From positions 1 to 63,998 of IMG/VR virus record IMGVR_UViG_3300033134_000083: DNA of 63,998 bases, one strand, 5' to 3'. Each line of letters opens with the position of its first letter. The stretch's first letter is position 1. Both the position numbers and the translations under genes were made by a program. This DNA is from a virus. Shown here one piece after another: positions 24,299-31,548 of this stretch. Below the pieces are notes generated by a model that did not search any database, was not told where the DNA came from, and saw only the letters and a program-made list of their open reading frames with translations.

Positions 24299-25492
24299 AT
24301 AAGGAAAATTCGTATTCTCTGGTCGTCTAATGCGCCCTTCGCAGCGACGGGGTATGGAACCCAAACTGCTACCTGGCTACCGAGGATTAAATCGCTTGGC
24401 CATGAAGTAATAGCTGTTGCTCCGCCGTCATTTGCTGGGTCGCCGTTGAACTGGAACGGTATAACGGTTCTTCCTGGGTGGCGGGACGGAATCGGTAACG
24501 ACATTCTGCTAGACCATTACCGTCGCAGCGAAGCCGACGTGCTCATCACGTTGTGCGACGCGTACATGCTGGCACCCGAGATGCTCAGCGAAATGAACGT
24601 AGCCCACTGGCTGCCAGTTGATTGCTACCCTATGAACTTCCGCGACCAGGCCAGCATGAACCAGACCGGTGCGTTGCCGATAGCTATGAGTCAGTTCGGC
24701 CGGGACCAGCTAAAATCAGCCGGGTTTAGTCCGCGTTACATTCCGCACGCTATCGACATTACAACATTCTCACCACCCGCTAACCATAAGAAGCAGCGGG
24801 AAAGCATCGGACTGAGCGACAACACGTTTGTCGTTGGCTTGAACGCTTACAACAAAGACGTAATGCGAAAAGCGTTTGGGGAGCAGATGCTGGCGTTTGC
24901 GGCGTTCCGCAAACGCCACCCTGACTCAATGCTGCTGGTTCACTCCGCTGTGGCTGAACCTACTGCCGTGGACTTGCAAGCCCTAGCTCATGCCTGCGGG
25001 ATAGAAAAAGCTATCCTATTCCCCGACCAGTACAGCTATGCAGTTGGCACGATGACTGCTGAGAACATGGCTTCCTGGTATGGAGCGCTGGACGTTCTCA
25101 CTAACTGCTCCTACGGCGAGGGTTTCGGTCTGCCCATCCTCGAAGCCCAAGCTACCGGCACCCCGGTTGTCGTCACTGACGCTTCGTCCATGACGGAGCT
25201 GTGCGGTAGTGGATGGCTAGTTCCCGGTGATAAATTCTGGGTTCCGGCTCACCGGGGCTGGTGGATGCGACCGGACGTGTCATCCATGACTGCTGCGTAT
25301 GAGTCCGCATGGCAAGCACGCGAAAACGGTACCATGCCCGCGTTGCGGGAAAAGGCCCGCCAGTTCGCCCTCAAATACGACGCCGACGTAGTACTCAAGG
25401 AATGCTTCGCTCCGGTACTGGACGAAATCCAGGGAAACCTTCCAGTCAAAGAAGGTGTCAGCAGTGGCATTCTCCCTGAAACGGTACCATGA
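24299..25492 (+). CDS. GT-B (GT4-like) glycosyltransferase with noncanonical start
   Basis: About 397 aa. The conserved N-terminus (KIRILWSSNAPFAATGYGTQ) lies before the first ordinary start (TTG at 24446). The only possible starts are ATA at 24299, AGG at 24302 (three nt after GGAGG) or ATT at 24308. The C-terminal half has SYGEGFGLPILEAQATGTPVV, the E-x7-E-type nucleotide-sugar site of GT4 enzymes. It probably transfers a sugar to a virion protein or starts a glycan. First gene of a five-gene cassette. Confidence 0.8.
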   Translation: MRKIRILWSSNAPFAATGYGTQTATWLPRIKSLGHEVIAVAPPSFAGSPLNWNGITVLPGWRDGIGNDILLDHYRRSEADVLITLCDAYMLAPEMLSEMNVAHWLPVDCYPMNFRDQASMNQTGALPIAMSQFGRDQLKSAGFSPRYIPHAIDITTFSPPANHKKQRESIGLSDNTFVVGLNAYNKDVMRKAFGEQMLAFAAFRKRHPDSMLLVHSAVAEPTAVDLQALAHACGIEKAILFPDQYSYAVGTMTAENMASWYGALDVLTNCSYGEGFGLPILEAQATGTPVVVTDASSMTELCGSGWLVPGDKFWVPAHRGWWMRPDVSSMTAAYESAWQARENGTMPALREKARQFALKYDADVVLKECFAPVLDEIQGNLPVKEGVSSGILPETVP

Positions 25493-26132
25493 CTTTTACA
25501 ATACCCTCGGCTTTAACCAGTCAAGTGCGTTTATCCAATGGACTATCAAGGAACACGAAGCAGCTATCCTAAGCGAAAACTGCGTCGGTGCTAAATCAGT
25601 AGTCTCAGTGGGAACGTTCGGCGGTCTTTCGGTAGCAATAATCCTGGATGCTATGGCAGACGATGGGATACATTACGGCATCGACCCGTTTTTCCCCAAG
25701 TATTGCGCGCAGGACAATTACCGAGATGTATACGACGCTACTGTCGCTCACTTTCGCCGCCCCGGTCAGCAGACCGTAACCTTTCCTGGGTTTGCTTCCA
25801 TCCCCGGCGAGGAGCTATCCCAAAACGCCAGTGACGGGGAGCCTCCCATTGAGTGGCATCAGCTAAAGCGCGTACCACCCGGCGTGGACGTGTGTTTCAT
25901 CGACGGTGACCATCACGACCCAGTGCCCCTGAATGACTTCCAGGAAGTGTGGCCACTAATTAAGCCCGGAGGCCGCGTCCTCCACCACGACATTTCCAAC
26001 TCGACGTGGGGACCACACGCTGTTTCGCTGCTGAACTACATAAGGGAACTACCGGACGCAGACCTCTGGACTGATACGTCAGGTGAAGACGGAATCGCTG
26101 TAGTAACCAAAAAGGACGTGACCGCTACTTGA
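25455..26132 (+). CDS. Class I SAM-dependent methyltransferase-like protein
   Basis: 225 aa. AKSVVSVGTFGGLSVAIILD is a motif I-like glycine-rich strand-loop; GIDPFFP and VCFIDGDHHD match the acidic motifs of Methyltransf_24/O-methyltransferase proteins. It likely methylates a sugar or nucleotide-sugar in this cassette. The start overlaps the glycosyltransferase by 38 nt, so a later GTG at 25464 is possible. Confidence 0.7.
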   Translation: MSAVAFSLKRYHDFYNTLGFNQSSAFIQWTIKEHEAAILSENCVGAKSVVSVGTFGGLSVAIILDAMADDGIHYGIDPFFPKYCAQDNYRDVYDATVAHFRRPGQQTVTFPGFASIPGEELSQNASDGEPPIEWHQLKRVPPGVDVCFIDGDHHDPVPLNDFQEVWPLIKPGGRVLHHDISNSTWGPHAVSLLNYIRELPDADLWTDTSGEDGIAVVTKKDVTAT

Positions 26133-26821
26133 GCGTTGCCATTGTCAGCACCATCTACGACAACTATGACGCACCGTACATTCCACCCGAGCAAGACATC
26201 GAGTGCGAATGGGTCATGGTCACCGACCGGCCTCGTAGCTGCGCACCGTGGCGAGTGGTAACCGAACCAAGGCCGCATCTGCCTCCCCGGCTGGCGGGTA
26301 AAGTGCCCAAGACGCATTCCCGGCATTACACCGATGCTGACGTGGTTATCTGGACTGACGCTAACGTGGAAGTCACAGCTCCAGATTTCGCGTCATGGTG
26401 CGTAGCTCAACTCGGTGACAACCCGCTGAAAGCGTACGTTGACCCAGGTCGCGCTACTGTCCACGAAGAAGCTGCAGCTTCAGCAGTGTCGCCACGTTTC
26501 CACGGCCAGCCGTGCGTCGACCAAGCCGACTTTTATGTGAAGAACGGTTTTCCACCCGACTTTGGCACGTGGTGGACTGGGCTAGTGATTTACGGGCCCA
26601 ACTGCCCGTATTTCGGCGACGAATGGCTGAGTGAAATCACCCGCTGGTCGCTGCAAGACCAGATAGCTATCGGCTACATGTTTTGGCAGTACGGCATAGA
26701 CCCCAAACTAGTGTCTATCAAACCGGACTGGACCCGTCCCGACAACGGTTACGGAGGCTGGCACGGCCGAGACGGCGTGCACGACAAGTTCCGCATGCAT
26801 AACCACCGGCATGACCTATGA
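26129..26821 (+). CDS. Glycosyltransferase-like (DUF616/TOD1-type) protein
   Basis: 230 aa, TTG start overlapping the previous TGA. The opening SVAIVSTIYDNYD, a CEWVMVTDRP-type second strand and VVIWTDANVEV with an acidic pair resemble the DUF616/TOD1 glycosyltransferase-like family; the end contains KFRMHNHRH. Substrate unknown. Confidence 0.6.
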   Translation: MSVAIVSTIYDNYDAPYIPPEQDIECEWVMVTDRPRSCAPWRVVTEPRPHLPPRLAGKVPKTHSRHYTDADVVIWTDANVEVTAPDFASWCVAQLGDNPLKAYVDPGRATVHEEAAASAVSPRFHGQPCVDQADFYVKNGFPPDFGTWWTGLVIYGPNCPYFGDEWLSEITRWSLQDQIAIGYMFWQYGIDPKLVSIKPDWTRPDNGYGGWHGRDGVHDKFRMHNHRHDL

Positions 26822-27705
26822 AAGCACTCGTCACTGGCGACAAGGGTTTCATCGGCAGCCACGTTGCCAGTGAACTAAAATCCCGTGGCTACGAAGTGCA
26901 CGGCTACGACCTAGTTGACGACCGGGATGTGCGTAACCTACGTGGCGGCAGCCGCTACGACCTGATTATTCACTGCGCTGCCGTAGTCGGCGGACGACGG
27001 GTCATGGACTGGACCCCGCTGGAGCACGCAGTCAACCTGGCCATTGACGCGGCGTTGTTCCAGTACGCCCACCGTATTCGCGCTGGCCGCGTGGTGTACT
27101 TCTCTAGTTCCTGCGCATACCCCGCCATCTTGGGGGCTATCAACGGCCGGAAACTAGCCGAAGGCGACATCAACCTGGCTCAGCCACGGTGGCCGGACCA
27201 GCTTTACGGCTGGACCAAACTCACCGGGGAGCTACTCGCCCAAACAGCACGCGAAGCTGGCGTGCCTGTAAGCGTGGTACGGCCGTTCTCGGTGTACGGC
27301 CCACGTATGCGTGAAGGCTTCGCTGTCCGAGGCTTCCTGGAGCAGGTACAGCGCCGTAAAGACCCCGTCTCAGTTTGGGGTAACGCCGACCAGGTTAGGG
27401 ACTACATCCACGTAGCCGATGTAGCTAAGGCTGTAGCCACAGTAGCCGAGCAGCACATCGACGGCCCGGTCAATTTGGGCACTGGCGTTGGCACATCCCT
27501 AGCCGAACTAGTAGCCATGATGAGTGAAGCAGCAGGCTACGCTCCGACTGTGGAAGTGAACCGTGACATGCCCGCTGGTTACCCGTACCTCGTTGCGGAC
27601 GCCAAACTGCTGCACACGTTCTGCCCGCCGAGAATGGCGCTGGAAACCTACCTAGCTGAGGTGCTGGATGCTCGTCATGGTGCCGTCCAGGGAACGTCCC
27701 CGTAA
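26818..27705 (+). CDS. NAD-dependent nucleotide-sugar epimerase/dehydratase (extended SDR)
   Basis: 295 aa. TGDKGFIGSH is the Rossmann glycine motif, FSSSCAYP holds the catalytic Ser, and LYGWTKLTGE holds the YxxxK pair. RPFSVYGPRMREG and VRDYIHVADVAKA are typical of GDP-fucose synthase or UDP-hexose epimerase relatives. It should make the activated sugar used by the neighbouring transferases. Confidence 0.85.
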   Translation: MKALVTGDKGFIGSHVASELKSRGYEVHGYDLVDDRDVRNLRGGSRYDLIIHCAAVVGGRRVMDWTPLEHAVNLAIDAALFQYAHRIRAGRVVYFSSSCAYPAILGAINGRKLAEGDINLAQPRWPDQLYGWTKLTGELLAQTAREAGVPVSVVRPFSVYGPRMREGFAVRGFLEQVQRRKDPVSVWGNADQVRDYIHVADVAKAVATVAEQHIDGPVNLGTGVGTSLAELVAMMSEAAGYAPTVEVNRDMPAGYPYLVADAKLLHTFCPPRMALETYLAEVLDARHGAVQGTSP

Positions 27706-28330
27706 CGTAGCCCGGTTCGCTCAGGCAGCCCAGCAAACCGCTACCACGGCTGACGTTGTGTTCATCTTTGATGAAGACGACCCGCTCCTAGCCGAATCCA
27801 TCAAAGCAGCAGGACCGTGGCGTTACGTCACCCAGCCACGCATGATTACCGTGCCTAAGGTTAACCACTTTGCTATGGCTAACTTGGACTACCCAGTGCT
27901 CATGTTCGCTGGCGACGACTGCATACCCCAAACCAAAAGCTGGGATGAACAACTAGCCGACGCTGCCGCAACTGGTTACGCCTACCCCAACGGACTAGGC
28001 CGCACCGACATACCAGAACACGTAGCTATCCGCAGTGACATAGTCGAAGCCTTGGGCTGGTTCATGCTGCCTGTTTTGTCCCACTACTACACGGACAACG
28101 CCTGGGCTGACCTAGGCAACGGCGCCAAATGCATTACGTACCTGTCTGACGTGGTTTTGGAGCACCGTAACCCGCTGTACCGCAAAGGCCCCAAAGACCA
28201 CGTCCTCAGGATGGCTGAACTACGCGGCGACGCCGACCGAGCTGCATACCAGCAATGGCACGACGACGGCTTTGCTGATGATTTGAAAACAGTGCAGCAG
28301 GTTACTGCCGGATCAAAACTTCAAGGATAG
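27668..28330 (+). CDS. GT-A-type glycosyltransferase-like protein
   Basis: 220 aa. The start (MLVMVPSRERPRNVARFAQA), FIFDEDDPLL and MFAGDDCIP give two acidic motifs in the layout of GT2/GT-A enzymes, where DxD binds the metal-sugar nucleotide. It overlaps the epimerase end by 38 nt and closes the cassette. Confidence 0.7.
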   Translation: MLVMVPSRERPRNVARFAQAAQQTATTADVVFIFDEDDPLLAESIKAAGPWRYVTQPRMITVPKVNHFAMANLDYPVLMFAGDDCIPQTKSWDEQLADAAATGYAYPNGLGRTDIPEHVAIRSDIVEALGWFMLPVLSHYYTDNAWADLGNGAKCITYLSDVVLEHRNPLYRKGPKDHVLRMAELRGDADRAAYQQWHDDGFADDLKTVQQVTAGSKLQG

Positions 28331-28335
28331 CCCCC

Positions 28336-28605
28336 ATGCCCCGCATTTCGCTCCCTCCCGGCTGTTACGGAGCCAAACTCCCTACCCGTGAAGTAAACGA
28401 CAAACCCGGTGGTCACATCACCGTGACCGACCAGGAAGCACGCTGGATAGCTAACAGTAGTAATGGCCAGCTAGGCATCCTTTCCGCCACTCAAGCGCTT
28501 AGCTTCGGCACAAAGAAGAGCCGGTTGTGCCCTAGCTGTGCTCGGTTGTGGAATGCGTGGTCGGCTGAGTGCCCTCGTTGTGGGGCTGAGACTCAGGAAG
28601 CATAA
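28336..28605 (+). CDS. Zinc-ribbon protein, 89 aa
   Basis: The C-terminal CPSC...CPRC pair forms a zinc ribbon; the N-terminus (LPPGCYGAKLP, GGHITVTDQEARWIANS) resembles short phage head-to-tail region proteins. Its 3' end overlaps the antisense DUF397 gene by 74 nt. Confidence 0.55.
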   Translation: MPRISLPPGCYGAKLPTREVNDKPGGHITVTDQEARWIANSSNGQLGILSATQALSFGTKKSRLCPSCARLWNAWSAECPRCGAETQEA

Positions 28606-28726
28606 GCACTTCAACGCAATTGCCGTTTTCAGCGCTAAACGACGGCTTCTTCCATTCAGCTGGCGGTAGCACCTCAACGCAATTGCCGTTGAGGTTGCTC
28701 AAGGAAGATTTTCTCCAACTATTCAC
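28532..28726 (-). CDS. DUF397-type protein with two tandem half-repeats, 64 aa
   Basis: GTG start at 28726. Two copies of the DUF397 signature are present: WRKSSLSNLNGNCVEVL and WKKPSFSAENGNCVEVL, about 21 residues apart. DUF397 proteins are abundant in Streptomyces and relatives, usually beside Xre-type regulators or in development and abortive-infection-like loci. Here the gene is alone, on the minus strand, inside the plus-strand virion operon. A TATAGT box (28739-28734) eight nt upstream suggests leaderless transcription. The last 22 residues overlap the plus-strand gene and may not be functional. Confidence 0.7.
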   Translation of the reverse strand: MNSWRKSSLSNLNGNCVEVLPPAEWKKPSFSAENGNCVEVLMLPESQPHNEGTQPTTHSTTEHS

Positions 28727-28733
28727 ATTAGCA

Positions 28734-28741
28734 ACTATACC
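28734..28741. promoter_or_regulatory. Shared ACTATACC / GGTATAGT box
   Basis: On the plus strand it is the late-box sequence 19 nt before the 28760 ATG. On the minus strand it gives TATAGT, a good -10 box for the DUF397 gene. It may serve both directions. Confidence 0.4.
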
Positions 28742-28759
28742 ACAAAAGGAAACCCCTGC

Positions 28760-29410
28760 ATGGCTGTTTATGCCCGCAGCGACGTAGCTTCCGTCGCTAT
28801 CCCTGTCAGCGACGGAGGTTGTGGTGACATCCACTTCCGACCCGTCGTCCAGGGCGCACCCGCTAAAGTATGGAAGCTAACTTGTGGCCCCTGCGAAACC
28901 TACCTCAAAAGGGACATCACTGCGTCCACTATCGAGTGGACTGACAAAGAACACGTCAAACACATTTACAACACGTCCACTTGGGGTGACGACCCCACCC
29001 GCATTCCGCTCACTCCCGACGAGGAACGCGTGTCGAACTCGATGGAGAAGCAAGGCAAGGCGGCCATGGCGTCCGTCTTCGAAGGAATGGCTAAAGGCTT
29101 TATCACCGAACAGCAGCGCGCCACAGCCGCCGACACGGAAGCCTCCATCTACGCTCAAGCGCAAACGCAGGCTGCGAAAGAAATCGAAGACCTAAAAGCC
29201 CAGATTGCTGCTCTCCAAGAAGCCTTCGGTACTAGTCAGCCGCTACGACGCGAGAAGAAAGGGACCATCGTTCCCGAGAGCCCGAACCTTCCCACCGGCC
29301 TAAAGGGCATCTGCCCAGAATGCGGTGGGCCACTCCGTAAACCGGGTCAGCGTGGCGCCACTCCGAAAGTGTGTACTAGCTGCAGAGCTAAAGCAAAGGT
29401 GTTAGCTTAG
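28760..29410 (+). CDS. Virion-region protein with C-terminal zinc ribbon, 216 aa
   Basis: An N-terminal CxxC-bearing beta domain (GGCGDIHFRP, KLTCGPCETYLKRD), a central helical stretch (residues 90-150) and a C-terminal CPECG...CTSC ribbon. Similar proteins occur between capsid and connector genes in actinophages; the role is unknown. Confidence 0.6.
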   Translation: MAVYARSDVASVAIPVSDGGCGDIHFRPVVQGAPAKVWKLTCGPCETYLKRDITASTIEWTDKEHVKHIYNTSTWGDDPTRIPLTPDEERVSNSMEKQGKAAMASVFEGMAKGFITEQQRATAADTEASIYAQAQTQAAKEIEDLKAQIAALQEAFGTSQPLRREKKGTIVPESPNLPTGLKGICPECGGPLRKPGQRGATPKVCTSCRAKAKVLA

Positions 29411-30999: not shown

Positions 31000-31548
31000 T
31001 CAGGACTCCTGGGACCCTCGGCGGTACTCCCATAGCCGTCGAACGTTTTCGCTGTTAGTTACCGTTTCCATGTGCGCTGGGTTACAGCAAAGAATGTTTC
31101 GGCACAGATGGTCAATAGTTAGACCCGCTGGAATCGGTCCTACTATTAGTTCGTAAGCAAACCGATGAGCCCCAACTACTTCTTCGCTGGTAATTCCGAA
31201 GCGTCCGTACCCGTCGCTAGTCGTCCCTTCCAGCCACGGCCAGCACTCTTCCGCGTCGCAGCGCTGAACCTTTCCCCAGAAGCGCTCCTCCACCGGAAGC
31301 CCTTGAGGGCGCACCATAAGCAATGGATCACCATTGCGCTTCCAACGGTGATAATGAAGCGAACACCAGCCGCGCGCTAGTCGTACGCCTTCACATCCTT
31401 CTACAATGCAGCTTGTGTCTACTGGATGCCATCGCGATGGCTTAAGGATTGTCGCGTTTCCGTGCTTACGCCATCTTTGGTAGTGAAGCGTACACATATC
31501 CCGGCAGAAGGCAGGCCGCTCGCAGTCAACGATTGAGCAGTTTGTCAC
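31000..31548 (-). CDS. HNH homing endonuclease (free-standing, GTG start)
   Basis: 182 aa on the minus strand between connector and tail-terminator genes. Two N-terminal zinc modules (CSIVDCERPAFC...CTLHYQRW and CIVEGCEG...CSLHYHRW) precede the nuclease: VVGAHRFAYEL, GLTIDHLCRN and CCNPAHMETVTNSENVRR are the H, N-containing and H motifs. Such genes spread into phage operons by cutting intergenic or genic sites. The GTG start lies in the loop of a hairpin (31529-31559), which may restrain its translation. Confidence 0.85.
   Translation of the reverse strand: MTNCSIVDCERPAFCRDMCTLHYQRWRKHGNATILKPSRWHPVDTSCIVEGCEGVRLARGWCSLHYHRWKRNGDPLLMVRPQGLPVEERFWGKVQRCDAEECWPWLEGTTSDGYGRFGITSEEVVGAHRFAYELIVGPIPAGLTIDHLCRNILCCNPAHMETVTNSENVRRLWEYRRGSQES

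Follow-up and report, generated by a model that had tools for sequence, protein, structure and literature searches.

What is a gene of the DUF397 family doing in the structural region of a phage, and how much of a DUF397 protein does it encode? DUF397 proteins act together with XRE/WhiJ regulators as their partners; filamentous actinobacteria encode them in large numbers, and they are still poorly understood. The gene considered here lies in a viral metagenome record, IMGVR_UViG_3300033134_000083, whose whole stretch of 63,998 nt is referred to here as the window. The phage is laid out as a head block (portal, head proteins and protease), a glycosyltransferase/epimerase block, a pair of conserved genes (zr89 and g216), a head-tail connector gene and a tail block with the tape measure. 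The glycosyltransferases and a nucleotide-sugar epimerase, located between head and tail genes (24446-28330, plus strand), recur in part in some relatives. The connector-like protein shows a distant similarity to the head-to-tail adaptor of Arthrobacter phage Sonali; the host is probably an actinobacterium, for which the sole indications are the DUF397 family and remote phage matches. The DUF397 ORF sits between the glycosyltransferase/epimerase block and the connector gene, and the gene layout confirms that it runs antisense inside a rightward virion region, as a first-pass annotation of this DNA had proposed. The features of the locus are as follows.

28336..28605, plus strand: conserved zinc-ribbon gene (zr89), left border of the slot
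28606..28759, no strand: 154-bp insert in a variable slot, with 48% GC against 57% for the window
28532..28726, minus strand: orphan ORF of two truncated DUF397 units, GTG start, 64 aa
28670..28717, minus strand: DUF397 N-unit 1, WRKSSLSNLNGNCVEV, matching profile positions 2-20 of 55
28607..28654, minus strand: DUF397 N-unit 2, WKKPSFSAENGNCVEV, matching profile positions 1-23 of 55
28532..28606, minus strand: read-through tail LMLPESQPHNEGTQPTTHSTTEHS in the place expected of the C-half, nearly all of it antisense to the zinc-ribbon gene
28605..28654, no strand: direct repeat copy 1, the DNA image of unit 2
28668..28717, no strand: direct repeat copy 2, the DNA image of unit 1
28734..28739, minus strand: TATAGT, a -10-like box preceded by TG; it lies 7 nt before the GTG start, and no -35 partner was found for it
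28760..29410, plus strand: conserved 216-aa gene (g216), right border of the slot

Is the match to DUF397 genuine? The ORF translates as (GTG)NSWRKSSLSNLNGNCVEVLPPAEWKKPSFSAENGNCVEVLMLPESQPHNEGTQPTTHSTTEHS and carries the unit WRKSS..GNCVEV twice. In a profile search it matches Pfam DUF397 (PF04149) in two stretches, with 50.2 bits against a curated cut-off of 24 bits (E 2.9e-13), and it also matches PHROG 10815 (E 9.5e-12). At the DNA level the two units form a direct repeat of 50 nt, 72% identical and with a spacing of 63. A degenerate codon pattern for GNCVEV, GGNAAYTGYGTNGARGT, searched with one mismatch allowed, occurs at two sites only in the whole window, one in each unit, where 0.03 would be expected by chance. 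The profile match, the DNA repeat and the rarity of the pattern together mean that the ORF is real and not a chance reading. The first-pass annotation had called the ORF, its strand, coordinates, GTG start, both motifs and the tandem repeat from the letters alone, and had named an HMM search as the check; all of this is borne out. The profile search found no DUF397 match in the 64-kb record beyond these two. Outside the record, a DNA search of phages gave no match, a phage protein search with the 64-aa sequence gave chance matches only, and no close relative of the phage carrying the same ORF was found.

Which part of the domain is present? Both matches end at positions 20-23 of the 55-position profile. 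The N-half motifs of PF04149, W..SS..S and CVE (C.E), are present twice, and the C-half (the RDS motif, strands 3-4 and the terminal helix) is absent from the ORF and from the whole record, in which no C-half remnant or full DUF397 gene supplied in trans was found. When aligned with 26 further tandem proteins of the DUF397 family, the ORF product keeps all the N-half invariants (W, C, V and E in unit 1; W, C and E in unit 2) and has nothing similar to the C-half, V.VRDSKDP.GPVL.F...W..F, after unit 2. What follows instead? The second GNCVEV ends at 28607 and the stop codon of zr89 occupies 28603-28605. Unit 2 ends where this stop begins, and therefore the 24 residues beyond it are in essence read from the opposite strand of the 3' end of zr89, a gene that more than 20 related phages have conserved. 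The ORF is a duplicated N-half of DUF397 without its C-half. Both this restriction to the N-half and the antisense nature of the tail had escaped the first reading, whose 'compact two-repeat version' is misleading in that the C-half is gone. Could the C-half simply have been lost from the contig, the true phage carrying a full DUF397 gene? The record is a metagenome contig, which leaves room for an assembly error, yet the join falls exactly at the neighbour's stop codon with both flanking genes intact, and the collapse of a repeat would delete a unit, not the C-half. An error of this kind is very unlikely.

Is the duplication itself unusual? At least two N-units were found in about 30 distinct viral and about 11 cellular proteins, in a tally that itself required the C-half and came from DNA-pattern scans of viral contigs (metagenomic, so that some may be host fragments) and from a screen of 396 actinobacterial genomes. 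The collected proteins have from two to six N-units: three in L003, five in L148 and six in L121/L150, the last from a 97.9-kb phage contig (IMGVR_UViG_3300036790_000317) related to the window phage (63% in the connector protein). In three sampled host genomes about 4 of 67 DUF397 matches are extra N-units before a full domain, and the domain table of a Streptomyces coelicolor study has split DUF397 matches in 4 of 15 XRE-linked proteins (PMC10364602). Tandem N-units are thus not confined to this phage, and the duplication is not new. What distinguishes the window protein is the missing C-half, which every other tandem protein inspected retains (printed sequences, by eye, in separate sets collected without the C-half requirement of the tally); no second protein without it was found among them. 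Actinobacterial tandem proteins, for example SCO2514, SCO4177, SCO4300 and SCO6128, each XRE-linked and with two DUF397 matches (PMC10364602, Table 2), and L126 from a Stackebrandtia MAG, share with the window copy a short extra N-unit (W.K.S..S....CVE) ahead of another, but in L126 and the other host sequences read the C-half is kept. Likewise, the multi-unit IMG/VR phage proteins L003, L148 and L121/L150 repeat the N-unit and, unlike the window copy, retain the C-half, and several such multi-unit genes lie in tRNA arrays. A repeat protein of another kind is encoded by a viral ORF in L144 (12691-12801): a unit of roughly 22 residues, of the form YSYDWKLTACVQVPAD and not DUF397-like, recurs in it about nine times.

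What would the loss mean for the fold? In the published description, DUF397 folds into four strands and a helix; C.E lies in strand 2, and strand 3 ends with RDS (PMC7159879). For the tandem protein L126, AlphaFold predicts a confident small core (pLDDT 84-90 in residues 41-70) made of the last CVEV strand followed by two further strands and a helix, that is, the C-half. Taken together, the published fold and this model imply that the window copy misses most of the core. The window peptide is predicted with no strands and no fold (mean pLDDT 48.5, pTM 0.18); with 27 sequences and a 64-residue peptide, this failed prediction is a weak sign of disorder. The extra upstream N-unit of the intact L126 is also predicted to be unfolded, so N-units may be linear motifs able to work without the core. 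A fold search with the L126 control model returned nothing significant, and a sequence search found no solved DUF397 structure. The same contrast holds for BldB, which belongs to the DUF397 family, although it fits the domain comparatively poorly (PMC10294661): its domain is full-length, whereas the window peptide is without the C-half.

How did such a gene come to lie between zr89 and g216? Related loci were fetched via the connector gene (34 in total), and both border genes could be placed in 18 of them. The gap measures 2-45 bp in nine; in the remaining nine, 203-1674 bp of other sequence lie there, frequently with a leftward gene. DUF397 is missing from the slot in all 18 and occurs elsewhere in 4 of the 34 related records. 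As the gap is empty or differently filled in the relatives, this spot is a variable cargo slot, of which the DUF397 ORF is one lineage-specific occupant. The ORF is present in one phage yet absent at the same site in relatives, which is one mark of phage cargo genes (morons), and the GC content of the slot falls in the lowest 2.4% of the window. Five relatives seem to have a leftward slot gene in common (L093:2806-3189, L098:2721-3128, L099, L100 and L102, minus strand), when the translations are judged by eye. The rightward virion region of the window contains a further leftward insertion, an HNH endonuclease gene (PF13392, E 3e-14) at 31000-31548 (minus strand), and the relative L085 has two HNH matches near the corresponding place. 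Direct searches with the g216 protein in viral contigs gave no match, and no connector relatives were found in the 396 actinobacterial genomes, in a search run without a positive control.

Would the gene be expressed? The TATAGT box that the first-pass annotation assigned to the ORF is present (28739-28734, minus strand), but a promoter scan found no -35 partner for it, and a promoter of the ORF is therefore no more than plausible. A leaderless start at the GTG is possible because the box is only 7 nt away. Leftward sigma-70-like promoters with both boxes are present in the relatives L094, L098 and L102, directly behind the start of g216, and at this position the window has alone the -10 region of the GGTA.. 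type that is common to those relatives.

Could the product be a working DUF397 regulator, or a toxin-type partner of an XRE protein? Family membership by HMM and the existence of HTH-DUF397 pairs in phages speak for such a role. The first-pass annotation regarded DUF397 as characteristic of actinobacterial chromosomes next to Xre-type genes; 12 phage records match the family too, and DUF397 in a phage is thus not new. Known actinophages carry full DUF397, and the DUF397 gene comes directly after an HTH/DNA-binding gene in all three phages whose context was opened (Streptomyces phages Picard, Success and Samy). The window gene resembles these in being a DUF397 gene of an actinophage and in matching PHROG 10815, but theirs is a full single-unit domain preceded by the HTH/DNA-binding gene. 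The DUF397 proteins of the S. coelicolor study also follow an XRE gene (PMC10364602). The window copy is an orphan: its neighbours are the zinc-ribbon gene and the 216-aa gene, with no adjacent XRE/DUF5753 gene as in XRE-DUF397 pairs of the Scr1/Scr2 or WhiJ-BldB type, and in the record there is no match to DUF5753 and HTH_31 gives sub-threshold matches only. A toxin role has been proposed for DUF397 proteins (PMC2701414), but overexpression of 14 S. coelicolor XRE/DUF397 pairs was not toxic (PMC10364602), which weakens the toxin or antitoxin idea, the antitoxin-like form of which was entertained in the first reading. With the C-half missing as well, a working regulator or toxin partner is hardly credible here.

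The reading that we favour, with a probability of about 0.57, is that the gene is captured DUF397 cargo trimmed to two N-units, its core lost. A tandem-N-unit DUF397 (BldB-like) gene would have been captured into the variable slot between two rightward genes, oriented leftward behind a -10 element. Its C-terminal half (strands 3-4 and the helix) would have been lost later, an order that we also infer, with the trimming stopping at the stop codon of zr89. This would leave two N-units with a meaningless antisense tail and no XRE partner, most likely with little or no functional product; if expressed, its sole possible action would be that the N-units weakly and competitively bind a host DUF397 protein or XRE partner. 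We favour it because the profile matches cover positions 1-23 only while other tandem proteins keep the C-half, and because unit 2 abuts the zr89 stop with a tail antisense to a conserved gene. The low-GC slot, variable in 18 relatives without DUF397, points the same way, as do the single promoter box where L094, L098 and L102 have two, the unfolded peptide beside the confident L126 core, and the results for DUF5753 and HTH_31. Against a trimmed relic, both units are intact, in frame and with their N-half invariants, which is unexpected after long decay. Their codon usage is ordinary for the phage (a foreign-usage test was not significant), and the failed fold prediction is weak evidence if N-units act as linear motifs.

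The N-half invariants kept in both units speak for a functional minimal decoy, a leaderless 64-aa protein whose two N-units bind host DUF397/XRE (WhiJ-like) proteins and disturb regulation or a DUF397-linked defence, in line with the interference with a host system raised in the first reading. BldB, which is not a DNA-binding protein, forms hetero-oligomers with many paralogs (PMC10294661), DUF397 copies without an HTH gene have been linked to VMAP conflict systems (PMC7159879), and the N-unit itself seems to be amplified, since phage proteins, including one from a relative of this phage, have it in up to six copies. The lack of a second protein without the C-half, of a predicted fold, of a complete promoter and of conservation in relatives makes the decoy doubtful. 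A broader version is a step less likely: the N-unit would be an autonomous binding motif, which phages would raise to 2-6 copies to make orphan, multivalent decoys directed at host DUF397/XRE or at DUF397-linked conflict systems, and the window gene would be the minimal form, with the C-half dropped. A natural copy with N-units only, together with phage copies that have as many as six, would help to tell which half of the domain does its work and whether phages target the DUF397 network. Should the copy be a relic, as in the captured-and-trimmed reading, it would still be a record of a variable cargo slot in phages of an uncultured group.

The multi-unit genes have a further feature in their surroundings. 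The six-unit protein (L150:6706-6828 and L121:1330-2046), which has six tandem N-units and two C-half-like segments, is encoded in a region with about 30 tRNA genes. Of 30 multi-unit viral DUF397 genes, 7 have a tRNA gene within 1 kb, whereas only 1 among 72 chance-match loci does (Fisher P 7e-4, in a post hoc look); the seven are in L009, L016, L025, L051, L145, L150 and L153, several of them in large tRNA arrays.
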